Below are positions 5,987-33,845 of a stretch of DNA of 64,000 nucleotides, one piece after another (position 1 is the first letter of the stretch; each line of letters begins with the position of its first letter). The notes below the pieces were generated by a model. The model saw only the letters and a list, made by a program, of their open reading frames with translations. It was not told the DNA's origin and made no database searches. Source of the DNA: Parasedimentitalea psychrophila (GTDB lineage Bacteria > Pseudomonadota > Alphaproteobacteria > Rhodobacterales > Rhodobacteraceae); assembly GCF_030285785.1 (NCBI RefSeq), contig NZ_CP127247.1:1-64000 (forward strand), written 5' to 3'. The translations under genes were made by a program, and so were the position numbers.

Positions 5987-7294
5987 ATGCGTTATATGAT
6001 GACCTACGATATGATGGAAACCGCTCGCAATACCAACCAGTGGCTTGGGGCCACGGCGCGGTCGATGGCCTCATATCCGATGTTTTCTGCGATCCCCAAC
6101 CCGGCGCTGAACTGGATGGCCGCCTGGGGTGAGGTGACCGAACGCGCCTTTGATCGCATGGTGACAAAGCCCGACTGGGGCATTCACAGCGTCACCTGCG
6201 ACGACGGCAAGGACCACCTGGTCGAAATCAACACCGTTGTCGAACGCCCGTTTGGCGATCTGCTGCATTTCAAGGTCAACGGGCGCAAGGAACAACCGCG
6301 CAAGGTGCTGCTGGTGGCGCCGATGTCTGGTCACTACGCCACATTGCTGCGCTCCACGGTGCAAAGCCTGATGGTCAACTGCGAGGTCTATGTCACCGAT
6401 TGGCACAATGCCCGTGACATACCGGTGTCGGCAGGGACATTCGACATTGAGGATTACGCGTTATATCTGGTTGATTTCATGCGTGAAATGGGGCCTGAAA
6501 CCCATGTGGTCGCGGTCTGTCAGCCGGTGCCTCTGGCATTGGCCGCAACCGCCTATCTGGCCGAGCAGGACCCGGCGGCACAGCCCAACTCGCTGACCCT
6601 GATTGGTGGCCCAGTTGATCCCGACGCCGCCGCAACTGATGTCACCGATTTTGGTCGCCGCGTCACCATGGGCCAGCTCGAGGAAACCGCGATTCAGCGG
6701 GTTGGATTCAAGCACGCTGGCGTCGGCCGTCTGGTCTACCCCGGATTGCTGCAACTGTCCTCGTTCATCTCGATGAACGGCGAACGCCACGCCAAGGCGT
6801 TCTCAGATCAGATCCAGCGCGCCGCCAAGGGAGAGGCCTCGGATCACGACGCCCACAACCGGTTCTATGACGAATATCTGGCGGTGATGGACATGCCGGC
6901 CGAGTTCTACCTGTCCACCGTCGAGCGTATTTTCAAAGCCCGTGAGATTGCCCGCAACGCCTTCACCATCAAGGGGCACAAGGTCGATTTTGGCAAGATC
7001 ACCGATGTCGCGGTCAAAACAGTTGAAGGCGCCAATGACGATATCTCAGCCCCGGGCCAGTGTATCGCGGCGCTCGACCTGTGCACCGGGCTGGATGACA
7101 GCCGCAAGGCCAGCCATGTGGAACCCGGCGCCGGCCATTATGGCATCTTTGCCGGCCGCAGCTGGCGCAACAATATCCGCCCACTGGTGATCGACTTCAT
7201 GGATGCCAACAGCCGCCACGCCAAACCCAGCCCCAAACCCGGCCCCAAGACCAAAGCCAAGCAAAAGCCTGCCAACAAAAACGCGGTGGCCTAA
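5987..7294 (+). CDS. phaZ: intracellular polyhydroxybutyrate depolymerase
   Basis: A 435-residue protein of the intracellular PHB depolymerase family that mobilises native amorphous granules. The nucleophile is a cysteine in VVAVCQPVPLA (about C178), as in the PhaZa-type enzymes of Ralstonia, not the serine of secreted depolymerases. The C-terminal EPGAGHYGIFAGRSWR carries the catalytic histidine. The tail is a Lys/Pro-rich basic extension (about residues 405-435) that could contact granules or DNA. Start at 5987 with AAGGGA 7 bases upstream. Divergent from phaC; the next gene starts 3 bases after the stop and is probably cotranscribed. Confidence 0.94.
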   Translation: MRYMMTYDMMETARNTNQWLGATARSMASYPMFSAIPNPALNWMAAWGEVTERAFDRMVTKPDWGIHSVTCDDGKDHLVEINTVVERPFGDLLHFKVNGRKEQPRKVLLVAPMSGHYATLLRSTVQSLMVNCEVYVTDWHNARDIPVSAGTFDIEDYALYLVDFMREMGPETHVVAVCQPVPLALAATAYLAEQDPAAQPNSLTLIGGPVDPDAAATDVTDFGRRVTMGQLEETAIQRVGFKHAGVGRLVYPGLLQLSSFISMNGERHAKAFSDQIQRAAKGEASDHDAHNRFYDEYLAVMDMPAEFYLSTVERIFKAREIARNAFTIKGHKVDFGKITDVAVKTVEGANDDISAPGQCIAALDLCTGLDDSRKASHVEPGAGHYGIFAGRSWRNNIRPLVIDFMDANSRHAKPSPKPGPKTKAKQKPANKNAVA

Positions 7295-17845: not shown

Positions 17846-18016
17846 CAATTCTCTCCATCTCAAATAAAATTCACCGCAATTTGTGGTAAGGTCTATTTGT
17901 TTTACTTGATTTTTCTTCTAGCCATGTAAAGCTGTCCAAGGTTCACAAGCCACCCTAAACATTGCTTTCTTAAGCTGAAATGCAAGTCACACAAGGGCGG
18001 TTTTGGGGACCGGAAC

Positions 18017-18038
18017 CACTTTGAAATTACTCAAAGTG
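18017..18038 (+). promoter_or_regulatory. hairpin in the cold-shock gene leader
   Basis: CACTTTGA - 6 nt - TCAAAGTG is a perfect 8-bp stem ending 28 bases before the csp start codon and about 10 bases before its AAGGAGA ribosome site. Cold-shock mRNAs often have long structured leaders that act as RNA thermosensors; here that is inference from position. Confidence 0.5.
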
Positions 18039-18066
18039 ACGTGCAAGGTAGAAGGAGACACGGGGC

Positions 18067-18273
18067 ATGCCAAGCGGAACCGTGAAGTGGTTTAACACAA
18101 CGAAGGGCTTTGGGTTCATTGAGCCCGATGAGGGCGGCAAAGATGTGTTTGTGCACATCTCAGCGGTAGAGCGGTCAGGAATGACCGGGCTCGCAGACAA
18201 TCAGAAGATCGATTACGAACTTCTGGAAGGTCGCGACGGTCGCCAAATGGCCGGTGAGCTCAAATCCCTATAA
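18067..18273 (+). CDS. cold-shock protein, CspA family
   Basis: A 68-residue single cold-shock domain that binds single-stranded RNA/DNA. The RNA-binding motifs are clear: GTVKWFNTTKGFGFIEPDEGG (RNP1 KGFGFI) and KDVFVHISAVERSG (RNP2 VFVHIS). AAGGAGA precedes the ATG. The leader of about 200 bases upstream without another gene fits the family's long 5' untranslated regions. Confidence 0.96.
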   Translation: MPSGTVKWFNTTKGFGFIEPDEGGKDVFVHISAVERSGMTGLADNQKIDYELLEGRDGRQMAGELKSL

Positions 18274-18282
18274 TTTGAAACT

Positions 18283-18314
18283 CACTGCGCCCTGATTTTT
18301 GTCCGGGCGCAGTG
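18283..18314 (+). terminator. hairpin downstream of csp
   Basis: CACTGCGCCC - 12 nt - GGGCGCAGTG, a perfect 10-bp stem beginning 10 bases past the csp stop codon. It is followed by a 13-base C run (18320-18332) that abuts the IS3 remnant. Confidence 0.65.
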
Positions 18315-18332
18315 CAACGCCCCCCCCCCCCC

Positions 18333-18730
18333 TGTAATCTCCCCTAAAATTAGTGGTGATGGATTCGGCCGGTCGTCGCAACACACAGTGTAGATCTTTA
18401 AATTTGGAGGACTGTGTTGATGCGGAAACACATGCGAAGCATATGTGAGAGGGGTGCGTCTTTGATCGCTGAGATGAAGGACATGACGGATCAAAATAGC
18501 CGGCTAAAGAAAATGTATGCCGAGATGAGCATGCAAAACGAACTGCTGAAGGAAGCCCTTGGAAATAAGCGTTATGGCCGTCCACTGCCCGACAGGCGAA
18601 TGTTGGCATTCGCCGACAGGGTCAGAGGCGAGAGATGGCCATAAATGCAGTTGCGACGCCTGGGATCAGCATCGCGCTGGCTTGCCGAGCGTTCCAAATT
18701 AGTGAGACTTGCTATCGGTACAGTCCCATG
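18333..18730 (+). pseudogene. IS3-family element remnant, interrupted by IS256 and a 40-nt hairpin
   Basis: The left end TGTAATCTCCCC resembles the ends of the intact IS3 copy at 20837-22033. Residual orf[26 protein letters not shown] (18493-18567), nearly identical to orfA of the intact copy; the N-terminal half of orfA is largely deleted. Residual orfB after the hairpin: [33 protein letters not shown] (to about 18727), matching residues 9-40 of the intact orfB. The remnant stops at the IS256 insertion, and little IS3 sequence is recognisable beyond 20110. Confidence 0.85.
18582..18621 (+). repeat. 40-nt hairpin insertion, copy A (in IS3 remnant)
   Basis: 5' shoulder CCACTGCCCGACA, stem GGCGAATG - TTGG - CATTCGCC, 3' shoulder GACAGGG. 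Aligning the remnant to the intact IS3 copy shows 39-40 extra bases here. Without them, codons for VMAVQRREMA line up with [11 protein letters not shown] of intact orfB. The same architecture recurs at 19659 (B), 20454 (D) and 20707 (C). Confidence 0.8.
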
Positions 18731-18798
18731 GAGAGTGTCCGATCTTCTGTGTATGAGGAAATTGGCCCATGCTTCCAAACTATAGGAGCATGACGACA

Positions 18799-20050
18799 AT
18801 GACGATTTCCAAGGAACTATTGGACGAGCTGCTTAGCGGCGTTGAACGACCCGAGGATTTACTCGGCGACAAAGGCCTGGTGAAGGAACTCAAAGTCCGG
18901 CTGATTGAACGAATGCTGGGCGCGGAACTGACCGAGCATCTGGGCTATGAACCGCATGGCGAGCCTGCTAGCCAGCAGGCCAATCGACGCAATGGAGCGA
19001 CGCGCAAAGTGCTGAAGGGCAATGACGGGGCGGTGCCGATTGACATCCTGCGTGACAGGGACGGCAGTTTTGAGCCGGAACTGATCCGCAAAGGCCAGAC
19101 CCGGATCGACGGGATGGATGACAAGATCATCGGACTTTATGCGGCTGGACTGTCCACACGCGATATCCGCGCCCATCTGGAAGAGGTTTATGGCCTGCGG
19201 GTGTCTGCCGACCTTATCAGCCGCGTCACCGACGCTGTTCTGGCTGAGGTGTCGGACTGGCAGAACCGCGCTCTGGAGCCGATATATCCGATTGTTTTCC
19301 TTGATGCGCTCAGGGTCAAAATCCGAGATACGGAAAGCCGCCAGGTCAAAAACAAGGCCGTTTACGTAGCCCTTGGCGTCACCCCAGAAGGCGAACGTGA
19401 GGTTCTGGGCCTGTGGATTGCGGCCAACGAGGGGGCGAAATTCTGGCTCTCAATCATGAATAACCTGAAGAACAGGGGCCTGGAAGACATCCTGATCGCC
19501 GTCGTAGACGGCCTGAAGGGCTTCCCTGACGCGATCAACGCGGCCTTTCCCGACACCACTGTGCAAACCTGTATTGTGCACCTTGTGCGCCATTCCTTGA
19601 ATTTCTGCGGCTGGAAAGACCGCAAGAATGTGGCCAAAAGCCTGAAACGGGTTTACTCCCTTGCCTGGCAGGTGATGTTTACATCACCGAGAAGGGGCCA
19701 CGGATGACGCCGAGGCAGAGAAGGCCCTTGATGATTTTGAGGCCGAATGGGGCAACAAATACCCTTCAATCGCTCCAAGCTGGCGGCGCGCCTGGCAGGA
19801 GGTCATCCCGTTCTTTGCCTTCCCGCCAGCCGTGCGCAAGATCATCTATACGACGAATGCTATCGAGAGCTTGAACAGGGTGATCCGAAAAACCACAAAA
19901 ACCCGCGGCAGCTTTCCAACAGATGACGTGGCGACCAAGCTGATTTACTTGGCCATCCGCAATTTCGAAAAGACGGGACGGTGCGTCAGGGAGTGGGTTG
20001 CTGCCCGCAATCAGTTCGCTATTCTTTACCCGGAACGGTTCAACAGATGA
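18799..20050 (+). pseudogene. IS256-family transposase (Mutator type), frameshifted by a 37-40-nt hairpin
   Basis: Encodes a DDE transposase in two frames. Frame 1 runs from MTISKELLDELLSG to LKRVYS with catalytic aspartates in VFLDALRVKIRD and AVVDGLKGFPDA. The second frame resumes at ATDDAEAEKALDDFEAEW and carries the glutamate in TTNAIESLNRVIRK and the normal end ILYPERFNR. The break at 19659-19695 is a hairpin; deleting 37 bases gives one frame of 404 residues, the usual size for the family. Start at 18799 with AGGAG about 10 bases upstream; 18790 is the alternative. Confidence 0.9.
19659..19695 (+). repeat. hairpin insertion, copy B (in IS256 transposase)
   Basis: 5' shoulder CCTTGCCTGGCA, stem GGTGATG - TTTA - CATCACC, 3' shoulder GAGAAGG. 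It sits between codons for KRVYS and ATDDAEAEKAL. Removing 37 bases joins them in frame exactly where the IS256 family has a continuous sequence. The stem differs from copies A, C and D by paired (compensatory) changes. Confidence 0.85.
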
Positions 20051-20102
20051 CCCGTTTCAGCGGCATGGGCTGATGGTCATACACAGAGTTTCGGATACTC
20101 CC

Positions 20103-20387
20103 TCCCATGTTGATAACGTCCTATATGCGGAACGTTTGGCTGATTTGGCATCAGGTCATTGTCGTGTCGAGCGAACCCGGCACGGTTGAAGCATGTCTCA
20201 GTTTGGCGTTTTGGTCAACGAACGGTCTCTCCCATAACAAACACAGAGTACGCTTTTGCGGCTCTCACCGTCCTTAAGACGAGATCCTGTGACCGTTGAG
20301 CAGAAGGCCTAAACATTATCTACGAGGTCACTGGCTTAACGCCAACGCCTCCACGGCCCTTACAGAGAAAGGTCCTACTGCTGTCGA
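20103..20387. other. relic sequence between IS256 and the IS110 remnant
   Basis: Starts with the right TCCCATG target duplicate. Reading on from it gives no IS3 orfB similarity beyond a couple of residues. No intact coding frame, hairpin element or RNA gene is seen. It probably includes the 3' non-coding end of the IS110 element whose coding end is at 20388. Confidence 0.4.
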
Positions 20388-20453
20388 TCACCCCTCAAAG
20401 AAGGGGCGATATGGTTCGCCATGCTTGATGATCCCATGAACAGTACGGGCCAT

Positions 20454-20496
20454 CCACTGCCCGGCAGTGCATTGCGCAGCAATGTCACGAGAGGGT
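20454..20496 (+). repeat. 40-nt hairpin insertion, copy D (in IS110 remnant, opposite orientation)
   Basis: Read on the plus strand: shoulder CCACTGCCCGGCAG, stem TGCATTGC - GCA - GCAATGTCA (one bulged T), 3' shoulder CGAGAGGGT. The 5' shoulder is almost the same as copy A. The host gene runs on the minus strand, so this copy is inverted relative to it, unlike A, B and C. 43 bases stand where the family has one codon between IAA and MARTV, so the insert is 40 nt. Confidence 0.78.
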
Positions 20497-20706
20497 GGCG
20501 GCGATTGCGGTATACGCCTTGCGGCGCAGATGGGTGTTTTGGCGGTCTTTGGCGATGTAGCGCTCAAATTTGTCCCGGAAGCTGTTGGCGCGCTGCAGGA
20601 TGGCAACCTGTCCTGCCATCCAAAGGGTCCGGCGCATTCGTGCATTACCGTATTTTGACAGTTTGGTTTGCCCCCGGAATGTGCCGGACTGGATGGTCGC
20701 AAGATC

Positions 20707-20746
20707 CCTTTCGGCAGATTGCTTTGCAATCGCCTGTCGGGCGAGG
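20707..20746 (-). repeat. 40-nt hairpin insertion, copy C (in IS110 remnant)
   Basis: Read on the minus strand: shoulder CCTCGCCCGACA, stem GGCGATTGC - AAA - GCAATCTGCC (one bulged T), 3' shoulder GAAAGG. It separates FLKFCGM from DLATIQSGTFRG; deleting exactly 40 bases joins the two in frame. Confidence 0.85.
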
Positions 20747-20906
20747 CATGCCACAGAACTTCAGGAATTGCCGATGATGCCCGAAGCGGCGCAGGTCACC
20801 AGCTTCGGCCAGGATGGTCAGGGCGTTGATTGGTCCGGTAATCCCCCCCGAAACTAAGGGGATGTGGAAGTAGAATTTTCTCGGCAGAATGCATGAGGAG
20901 ATTTTG

Positions 20907-21170
20907 ATGAAGATGACGAGATATAGCGAACCCCAAATTCTTGCGATCCTACGCCAAGCCGAAGGCGGTGTGCCTGTAACGGAGCTGTGCCGCGAGCACG
21001 GGATGAGCAACGCGTCGTTCTACAAATGGCGATCAAAATACGGTGGTATGGACGCGTCGATGATCAGCCAAATGAAGGCGCTTGAAGACGAGAACCGGCG
21101 GCTGAAAAAGATGTATGCCGAGATGAGCATGCAAGCAGAATTACTGAAGGAAGCCCTGGGAAAAAAGTGA
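20907..21170 (+). CDS. IS3-family transposase OrfA
   Basis: 88 residues: an N-terminal helix-turn-helix ([42 protein letters not shown]) and a C-terminal leucine-zipper-like coiled coil ([20 protein letters not shown]). GAGGAG precedes the ATG at 20907. It ends in LGKK with the slippery A6G run (AAAAAAG, 21161-21167) just before TGA, the classical -1 frameshift site that makes the OrfAB fusion transposase. Confidence 0.93.
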
Positions 21171-21994
21171 TCCGGCCAGCCTTACGACGGGGTCTGGCCG
21201 AGAAAGCGGTGGCGCGCCACGGTATCAGCATTGCGCTGGCCTGCCGCACGTTTGATGTCAGTGAGACGTGCTATCGTTACAGCCCGCTCTTGAGCGATGA
21301 GAACGAAGAGATTGCCGATCTGCTGGTTGGGCTGACGGCCGCACGGAAGACTTGGGGGTTTGGGCTATGTTTCCTGCATCTACGTAACGTGCAAGGTCAT
21401 TCGTGGAACCACAAAAGGGTTTACCGGATTTACTGCGAACTGGAACTGAACTTGCGGATCAAACCTCGGAAACGGTTAAAGCGGGACAAACCCGATGCGC
21501 TGGCAGTGCCGGACGCCCCGAACATGACCTGGTCGATGGACTTCATGGCGGATCGCCTCGGGGATGGTCGGGCGTTTCGGCTCTTGAACGTGCTGGATGA
21601 TTTTAACCGCGAGGGTTTGGGCATCGAGGTCGATTTTTCTTTGCCAGCCGAACGGGTTATTCGCAGCCTTAATCGGATCATTGAATGGCGTGGGAAACCA
21701 GGAACCATTCGGGTCGATAATGGGCCGGAGTACATCAGTGGTAAGCTGCTGGAATGGGCTGAGAAACAAGGTATTATCATCCAGTACATTCAACCCGGAA
21801 AGCCGCAGCAGAACGCTTACATCGAGCGCTATAATCGCACCGTCAGGCATGAATGGTTGGACCAACATATCATCGAAAACATAGAGGAGGCACAGGACTT
21901 TGCCACACAATGGCTATGGACTTACAATAATGACCGCCCGAATATGGGCCTCGGCGGCATCACACCCGCAATGAAACTGAAAATGGCCGCGTAA
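21167..21994 (+). CDS. IS3-family transposase OrfB
   Basis: 275 residues with an rve/DDE integrase core: first aspartate in [13 protein letters not shown], second in [11 protein letters not shown], glutamate in [18 protein letters not shown]. The -1 frame overlaps orfA by 4 bases, so it is expressed mostly as an OrfAB fusion. The sequence looks intact over its full length. The same protein family left the remnant at 18.3-18.7 kb. Confidence 0.93.
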
Positions 21995-22033
21995 ATTCTA
22001 CGACCGCCCCCTGTTAAAAATGGGGGGATTACC

Positions 22034-33002: not shown

Positions 33003-33845
33003 TCAGCGCAGCGTGATCCCCTGACGTCCCGCCAGATCGACAAAGAACTGCCAGGCCACCCGCCCCGACCGGGCGCCGCGCGTTGCCTGCCATTCAATGG
33101 CCTCGGCGCGCAGGTGATCGGCGTCGCGTTTGATGCCATGGGCCGCACAATAGCCAGCAATCATTTCCAGATATTCATCCTGGGTACAGGGATGAAAGCC
33201 CAGCCAGAGACCAAAGCGGTCTGACAGAGAGACCTTCTCCTCCACCGCCTCGGAGGGGCTGATGGCGCTGGAGCGTTCGTTTTCGATCATCTCACGCGGC
33301 ATCAGGTGGCGCCGGTTTGAGGTGGCATAGAACACCACGTTTTCGGGGCAGCCTTCGATGCCGCCGTCCAGCACCGCCTTGAGGCTTTTGTAGTGCTGAT
33401 CATCGTGACTGAATGACAGGTCATCACAAAACAGGATGAACCGCTGCTGAGCAGTGCTCAGATGGTGCAGCAGCCGCGCCACCGAGGGCAGGTCTTCGCG
33501 CTGCAGCTCGATCAGTTTCAAATCCGGGCAATCCCCTATCAAGCTGGCGTGGATGGCTTTGACTAAGCTGGATTTCCCCATGCCGCGCGCCCCCCACAAC
33601 AGGGCATTATTGGCCGCAAACCCTTGGGCAAAGCGGCGAGTGTTATCCAGCAGCGTATCGCGGGATCGGTTGATGCCCACCAGCAGCTCCAGATCCACCC
33701 GACTGATATGCGCCACCGGTTCCAGACGCTCGGGGTCCACATGCCAGACAAAAGCCGAGGCCGCCGCAAAATCGGGCGCTGCCAGTGGCGCTGGCGACAT
33801 CCGTTCCAGGGCGTCGGCGATGCGGGTTAATGCGGTCTGGTCCAT
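33003..33845 (-). CDS. DUF815 family P-loop ATPase
   Basis: 280 residues with Walker A WGARGMGKSSLVKAIH, a Walker B-like FILFCDDLSFS and a sensor-like VVFYATSNRRHLMPR: an AAA-type ATPase of the DUF815 family, cellular role unknown. Start ATG at 33845 with GAGGGA; a longer frame to 33881 lacks a site. Confidence 0.9.
   Translation of the reverse strand: MDQTALTRIADALERMSPAPLAAPDFAAASAFVWHVDPERLEPVAHISRVDLELLVGINRSRDTLLDNTRRFAQGFAANNALLWGARGMGKSSLVKAIHASLIGDCPDLKLIELQREDLPSVARLLHHLSTAQQRFILFCDDLSFSHDDQHYKSLKAVLDGGIEGCPENVVFYATSNRRHLMPREMIENERSSAISPSEAVEEKVSLSDRFGLWLGFHPCTQDEYLEMIAGYCAAHGIKRDADHLRAEAIEWQATRGARSGRVAWQFFVDLAGRQGITLR

Follow-up and report, generated by a model that had tools for sequence, protein, structure and literature searches.

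IS200/IS605-type elements and their MITEs insert on the 3' side of a short tag, do not duplicate the target and use hairpins as recognition units, and the Rickettsia palindromic elements are inserted in frame into host protein genes. The CGTC REPs predominate in the alphaproteobacteria and carry a CGTC, TGTC or CCTC tag, and no dedicated transposase is known for them (PMC3733652). The same survey describes a stem of 8-9 bp that begins with A-T pairs, a CCA-like tail and a mostly intergenic location, links with transposase genes being regarded as merely fortuitous (PMC3733652). The main text of PMC3733652 has no word beginning with 'rhodobacter' or 'dinoroseobacter'.

The window analysed in this study, a stretch of 64,000 nucleotides from Parasedimentitalea psychrophila (Rhodobacteraceae), contains four copies (A to D) of a hairpin that works like a REP-type non-autonomous element, without a GTAG tag and without the layout of the CGTC REPs. 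The CGTC REPs are the closest described kind. Both are small palindromes present in many copies, mainly in alphaproteobacteria, with a CGTC-like tetranucleotide on one side, no dedicated transposase known and sometimes a location within genes. However, the present hairpins have CRYTGCCCGRCAG and CGANAGGG shoulders, a clamp and a 4x4 internal loop, they lack the CCA tail, and they are mainly found in or near transposase genes. In comparison with the stem and tail of the CGTC REPs, they show 12 nt between the tag and the inner stem, a CCC/GGG clamp and a 3' GANAGGG. As for the tag, an exact YRTC is found at 61 of 120 hairpin sites (background 1.7%), yet it is also present in empty sites.

The hairpin, the unpaired 5' tag and the presumed lack of autonomy and mobilisation in trans are shared with the GTAG REPs and REPINs that are associated with RAYT (PMC3733652, PMC3116915, PMC8266576). 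However, there is no GTAG tag in the present family, in which flank and 5' shoulder together read YRTC-CRYT-GCCCGRCAG, and its own genome has no Y1_Tnp (see below). Rickettsia palindromic elements are likewise described as palindromes within genes (PMC3733652), whereas the hosts of the present hairpins are mostly transposase genes, the frame of which is often broken. As in the IS200/IS605-type elements, insertion takes place 3' of a short, here loose, tag without target duplication, but the element consists of just one hairpin, about 41 nt long, and TnpA was not found in the own genome. No published description of the family was found in the open-licence literature of PubMed Central, as covered by titles and the beginnings of abstracts, and the family is apparently undescribed so far.

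Hairpin copies in the window

The four hairpins were found where an earlier note on this DNA had placed them, with the shoulders that it had described (Table 1), and a scan of the window for shoulder plus stem returned A, B, C and D together with one weak match at 33018. When single RNA folds were compared with dinucleotide shuffles, the signal was clear for A and C (z-scores of -3.0 and -2.8, respectively) and weak for B and D (-1.4 each), and the case for the hairpins rests on the family. In a search of positions 18000-21200 with Rfam 15, only sR53 was matched over the hairpins (E-value of 1.2, 16.4 bits where 49 are needed). A weak match to the cspA thermoregulator at 18000-18315 (E-value of 4e-6, 33 bits where 78 are needed) lies over a cold-shock-like gene at 18067-18273.

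Table 1. Positions of the hairpin copies, their host genes and a nearby IS3 in the window.
Feature	Position	Strand	Remarks
Copy A	18583..18621	+	39 nt; CGTC at 18579-18582 as target tetranucleotide; lies between the OrfA-like and OrfB-like parts of an IS3 remnant
Copy B	19659..19695	+	37 nt, 3' end +/-1-2 nt (G run); within IS256-type transposase gene, both halves open
Copy D	20455..20495	+	41 nt; target CATC at 20451-20454; strand opposite to the adjoining IS110 piece
Copy C	20706..20746	-	41 nt; other side of the IS110 piece, on the gene's own strand
Host of A: IS3 remnant	18456..18799	+	OrfA-like at 18456-18569, OrfB-like at 18614-18799 with one stop (tblastn)
Host of B: IS256-type (Mutator) transposase gene	18769..20050	+	
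IS110-family transposase gene piece, between D and C	20497..20703	-	PF02371
Nearby IS3 without element	20889..21994	+	

The targets of B (ACTC) and C (CATG) are looser than those listed for A and D. At the DNA level, the IS3 remnant around A matches positions 21043-21177 of the nearby IS3 to 71%, and the element of copy C is present again, with nearly identical flanks, at C1:3391139. The earlier note had assigned to all four copies a length of 37-40 nt and a frame shift of +1. Neither statement could be upheld: with the boundaries derived from empty sites, in which the element starts 4 nt before GCCC, A, B, C and D measure 39, 37, 41 and 41 nt and leave remainders of 0, 1, 2 and 2 upon division by three, such that only B shifts the frame by +1. 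With these lengths, the in-frame insertion known from the Rickettsia palindromic elements does not hold for the window. The claim that removal of the hairpins restores the expected family protein may hold for B, whose host gene shows no other break (PF00872 is matched at positions 13-279 ahead of the insert and at 284-372 after it, in another frame), but A is located between the OrfA and OrfB similarities, and C and D flank an IS110 piece.

Fold, boundaries and target of the hairpin unit

The hairpin is composed of a CCC/GGG clamp, an internal loop of 4x4 nt that is well conserved (GRCA/GANA), and a variable inner stem. The shoulders and the stem with its compensatory changes had been recognised in the earlier note, but the clamp and the internal loop were left out of the structure proposed there. 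A covariance model (R1) was built on 26 copies of the commonest length class, in which 98.1% of the cells pair, two-sided changes are seen at 7 of the 12 pairs (0 of 500 shuffles) and a bulged T is constant. Across 147 distinct copies, which represent 150 of 156 matches from 96 sources, 98.3% of the cells pair, in an alignment that was fitted to the covariance model and leans towards it, slid controls pairing at 32-56%. Two-sided changes were observed at all 12 pairs of these copies, including the CCC/GGG clamp, and they amounted to 278 cells compared to 80.5 in shuffles, a value reached by none of the 500 shuffles. The inner stem changes, yet it stays paired through compensatory changes. The 4x4 loop is mostly GGCA or GACA opposite GAGA, GAAA, GACA or GATA. 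Paired changes of the outer clamp, which give the variants GACC...GGT and GCAC...GTG, were seen in different genomes within or close to IS3-type sequences (L101:1324 and 1503, L084:2509, L190:4746). With respect to stop codons, 59 of 110 elements are open in all six frames compared to 11% of shuffles, which is a hint at most as the shuffles break the palindrome.

The mobile unit is CRYTGCCCGRCAG-hairpin-CGANAGGG, with a length of 34-43 nt and commonly 41 nt. The statistics on its sites refer to 120 of 121 non-redundant sites, one having too little flank, and the commonest length class (37+4 nt) accounts for 76 of them. The most common bases at these sites are C-A-T-C at positions -8 to -5, followed by CRYT and then GCCC, and in 68% the final GGG is followed by a G.

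Filled sites could be aligned with an unfilled relative in 66 cases. In 24 of these, the gap began exactly 4 nt ahead of GCCC and closed with the last G of GGG or one nucleotide earlier, and in 12 more it was within 2 nt of these limits; at the 25 sites with an identity of about 80% or more, the respective numbers were 16 and 4. The limits were missed by more than 2 nt at the remaining 30 sites, 25 of which are aligned at lower identity. Clear examples of empty and filled sites are TTGTTCGTC|ATGG and GGGCGGTC|ATT, the empty copy of the latter being located in the window (21812-22033) and its filled counterpart at C1:3392518. No target duplication was seen in the comparisons of filled and empty sites. 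Since the YRTC-like tetranucleotide exists in empty sites, it is the target and not part of the element. The comparisons show that the unit is precisely present or absent on the 3' side of a YRTC-like tetranucleotide that was there beforehand, in either orientation relative to the host gene and with no duplication of the target. In view of the many independent sites and the open ORF in the empty copy of an IS30 gene (see below), we infer gain rather than loss. A comparison of empty and filled sites had been proposed in the earlier note.

Distribution, recent movement and candidate movers

The strict pattern GCCCGRCAGN{12,26}CGANAGGG has 67 matches in the own 5.0-Mb genome and none in the reversed control. 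At least 139 copies were detected in this genome with the covariance model (E-values of 0.1 or better), which is a lower bound because 150 of 5372 first-look candidates were scored. Scanning of 80 loci for shoulder plus stem gave 192 matches, and 4 on reversed sequence. The family thus proved to have many more copies, in the own genome and in relatives, as the covariance-model search suggested by the earlier note was meant to find out. Among 394 genomes of the Rhodobacteraceae, for each of which up to 15 candidates were scored, 167 match at an E-value of 0.01, the own genome included. The other listed genome of the same genus (G304) has one match, with an E-value of 0.009. In a class-wide draw of 289 genomes, 11 match at an E-value of 0.001, 4 from the own family and 7 from other families, and one of these genomes (G586) has 10 matches with stems of its own. 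In a plasmid collection, the hairpin was detected in 101 of 72,556 records, and the 60 matches listed presumably stem from genera of the roseobacter group and their relatives, judging by the record names. Two partial matches in phage records were judged to be due to chance. Among the matches listed for named genomes, structured ones come from Ruegeria, Roseobacter, Leisingera, Sagittula, Tritonibacter, Labrenzia and a Rhodospirillales MAG, and stemless chance matches in unrelated phyla are also included. The MAG carries several divergent copies in a cluster (L126:2843-2959 and 6007-6106), perhaps representing a separate subfamily.

One plasmid-borne IS30 transposase gene contains no insertion in Sulfitobacter sp. 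SK025, two in S. pontiacus BL28 and three in S. pontiacus S1704. The gene of SK025 is a 470-codon ORF without the element, with other hairpins nearby, and the inserts of the other two strains have 40-42 nt and consensus ends. Pairwise, the genes differ at 19/1410, 23/1410 and 14/1491 aligned positions. As they are therefore 98.4-99.1% alike despite having 0, 2 and 3 insertions, the movement is recent, and because the three elements differ in their stems, they came from different source copies. At the third site, a one-base difference between the filled and empty flanks is located beside the insert. With this series within a single gene, named Sulfitobacter strains become available in which to look for the mover.

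No match to Y1_Tnp was obtained in the own genome, in a search that was positive in 5 of 14 control genomes, and a hairpin was found at 1 of 12 Y1 loci of relatives. A Y1 or RAYT enzyme was on these grounds rejected as a local mover. The proposal of the earlier note, a REP-like element moved by a TnpA_REP-type enzyme, has therefore survived in part: spread at the DNA level, lack of autonomy, the REP-like character and the location mostly in IS genes stand, but the RAYT gene for which the note had recommended a search is absent from the own genome. Among the relatives, Y1 is present in 38 of 394 genomes, and the hairpin occurs in 27 of these 38 genomes compared to 140 of the 356 without Y1 (Fisher's exact test p-value of 2e-4, odds ratio of 3.8). 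When an IS110-like protein was used in place of Y1 as a proxy for transposon load, the odds ratio was 1.3 (p-value of 0.37), assuming that the 295 genomes concerned are G000-G294. Y1 is missing from 18 of the 25 genomes for which 10 or more copies were listed. In view of the positive association, the mover may nevertheless be a Y1 enzyme that acts in trans and is plasmid-borne or has since been lost. A longer, gene-bearing version of the element was not present in the loci examined, which contain 8 orphan 5' halves and 117 orphan 3' halves but no pairs of these. The tag, the absence of a target duplication and the conserved fold suggest a single-strand route, in which the hairpin would move in trans as a folded single strand and an enzyme reading the shoulders and the fold would cut and join this strand. 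Its working mode would then resemble that of the IS200/IS605-type or REP elements.

Taken together, these data make it probable that the hairpins form a family of non-autonomous mobile elements, the unit CRYTGCCCGRCAG-stem-loop-CGANAGGG inserting 3' of a YRTC-like target, mostly in or near transposase genes. For a search for the mover, the family provides ends that are defined through empty sites, a rule for the target and, in one gene of closely related plasmids, a natural series with 0, 2 and 3 insertions. It is rather unlikely, but conceivable, that it represents a new class, in which a hairpin of about 41 nt, with a mover outside the known Y1 and RAYT families, prefers the transposase genes of other transposons and rides on them. 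If so, it would parasitise transposons and not the host. It is also conceivable, although rather unlikely, that the hairpins belong to a CGTC-REP superfamily with grown shoulders, in which one enzyme moves both kinds of element and the CGTC tag is a target rather than part of the repeat. This idea gains from the alphaproteobacterial predominance of the CGTC REPs, their tag and their lack of a known dedicated transposase (PMC3733652), and from the presence of the YRTC-like tetranucleotide in empty sites. However, as described there, the CGTC REPs have another stem and tail, a mostly intergenic location and fortuitous links to transposase genes (PMC3733652), and the present family has the 12-nt shoulder, clamp and internal loop between tag and inner stem as well as mostly transposase genes as hosts. 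The hairpin family bears on the question of how the CGTC-type palindromic repeats of alphaproteobacteria, which have been described without a mover, are moved (PMC3733652).

Host genes of the hairpins

Similarity to transposases was found within 120 bp of 86 of the 120 non-redundant sites (48 on both sides and 38 on one side), compared to 36% of random positions in these loci, the count being based on 22 transposase queries, several of which were drawn from such loci, with the hairpins masked in queries and targets. By source, these were 45 of 64 sites in the own genome, 28 of 42 in relatives and 13 of 14 on plasmids. The weak match L083:5814 was left out of this count. Of the 34 remaining sites, 13 were inspected with Pfam, and 9 of these are in or beside transposase domains, 1 is within a tyrosine recombinase and 3 are without a match. 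A host other than a transposase is seen at L064:1350-2387, where the hairpin is situated within an open frame with the tyrosine-recombinase domains PF00589 and PF13495. By domain or annotation, the hosts include transposases of the IS3, IS5, IS6, IS21, IS30, IS110, IS256, IS630 and DUF772 types, some of these labels being what we take to be the family of the respective domain. At sites with two-sided matches on one strand, 17 copies lie on the strand of the gene and 29 on the opposite strand. The 139 copies of the own genome occupy 66 of 484 10-kb bins, whereas about 121 would be expected if they were distributed evenly; copying of element-carrying ISs adds to this clustering. Twenty 10-kb stretches of the own genome have neither a hairpin nor a match to the 22 transposase queries, but they were picked by hand once the list of copies was known and therefore do not represent a fair test.

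The confinement to transposase genes may be explained by a loss of insertions from ordinary genes, although the mover may also have a preference for transposase genes. In the former case, insertions into other genes would mostly be lost to selection, leaving the transposons as a harbour. We consider it improbable that the hairpins are put into transposase genes by a system of the host or of a plasmid in order to switch these genes off. Such a system would account for the proximity to transposases and the crowding into few bins, to which IS copying contributes, but some insertions leave the frame open, as in the IS3 OrfB of Sulfitobacter sp. D7 (L237) and an IS5-type ORF (L050), the target is a loose tetranucleotide, and purging from other genes would give the same picture.

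The hairpin is the only lesion seen in the IS110 genes of L033, L035, L046 and L047, in an IS256 (L119) and in an IS3 (L190), and other IS hosts carry further stops or frame changes in addition. For annotation, this means that some seemingly degraded transposase genes carry a short insert as their sole visible lesion. Five nearly identical copies of one IS110, one of them partial (L010, L033, L035, L046 and L047; C1:452179, 3448947, 3612093, 4138535 and 4164275), have three hairpin variants at one site. These variants show 2 or 5 differences in 41 nt compared to about 1% in the flanks, and in one of them 5 changes fall within 9 nt of the tip with the pairing intact. The three variants at a single site may reflect exchange, re-insertion or fast change.

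It seems very improbable to us that expression of the host genes continues across the element through ribosome bypassing or RNA removal, such that the carriers would remain active transposons. In line with this notion, the 41-nt hairpin is the sole lesion seen, in comparison with a relative, in the four near-identical full copies of the IS110 gene, the 4 nucleotides that vary downstream of the hairpin are all synonymous when read in the original frame, and IS copies with one shared insertion occur 2-5 times. However, of the nucleotides that vary before the hairpin, 3 belong to synonymous and 6 to non-synonymous codons, some being located upstream of the probable start, and these sites are few. 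Moreover, carrier copies can be mobilised in trans, several other hosts have additional stops or frame changes, and the hairpin is absent from 29 of 29 loci of relatives of this IS110, which thus give no sign of long-kept insertions. The codon evidence is too small for a claim of translation across the hairpin.

The view that these IS genes contain the hairpins as a regular component can practically be dismissed: some positions are indeed seen again, with other stems, in homologous IS copies, but precise empty sites exist in relatives, some of which are 96-99% identical, both orientations and unrelated transposase families are represented among the hosts, and this reading is refuted at the sites with close empty relatives. 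The earlier note had itself allowed for this outcome, and for further copies or empty sites being lacking, and neither turned out to be the case.

One and the same 3' flank (atgaacgg...) adjoins the hairpin at a site of another organism and at four sites of the own genome, where two kinds of 5' flank are seen (L004:1501-1535, L014:1501-1535, L017:1501-1536, L032 at C1:3430782, and L195:5785-5820). At L004, similarity to an IS110-type element begins just downstream of the hairpin, as if the IS had used the hairpin as a target.
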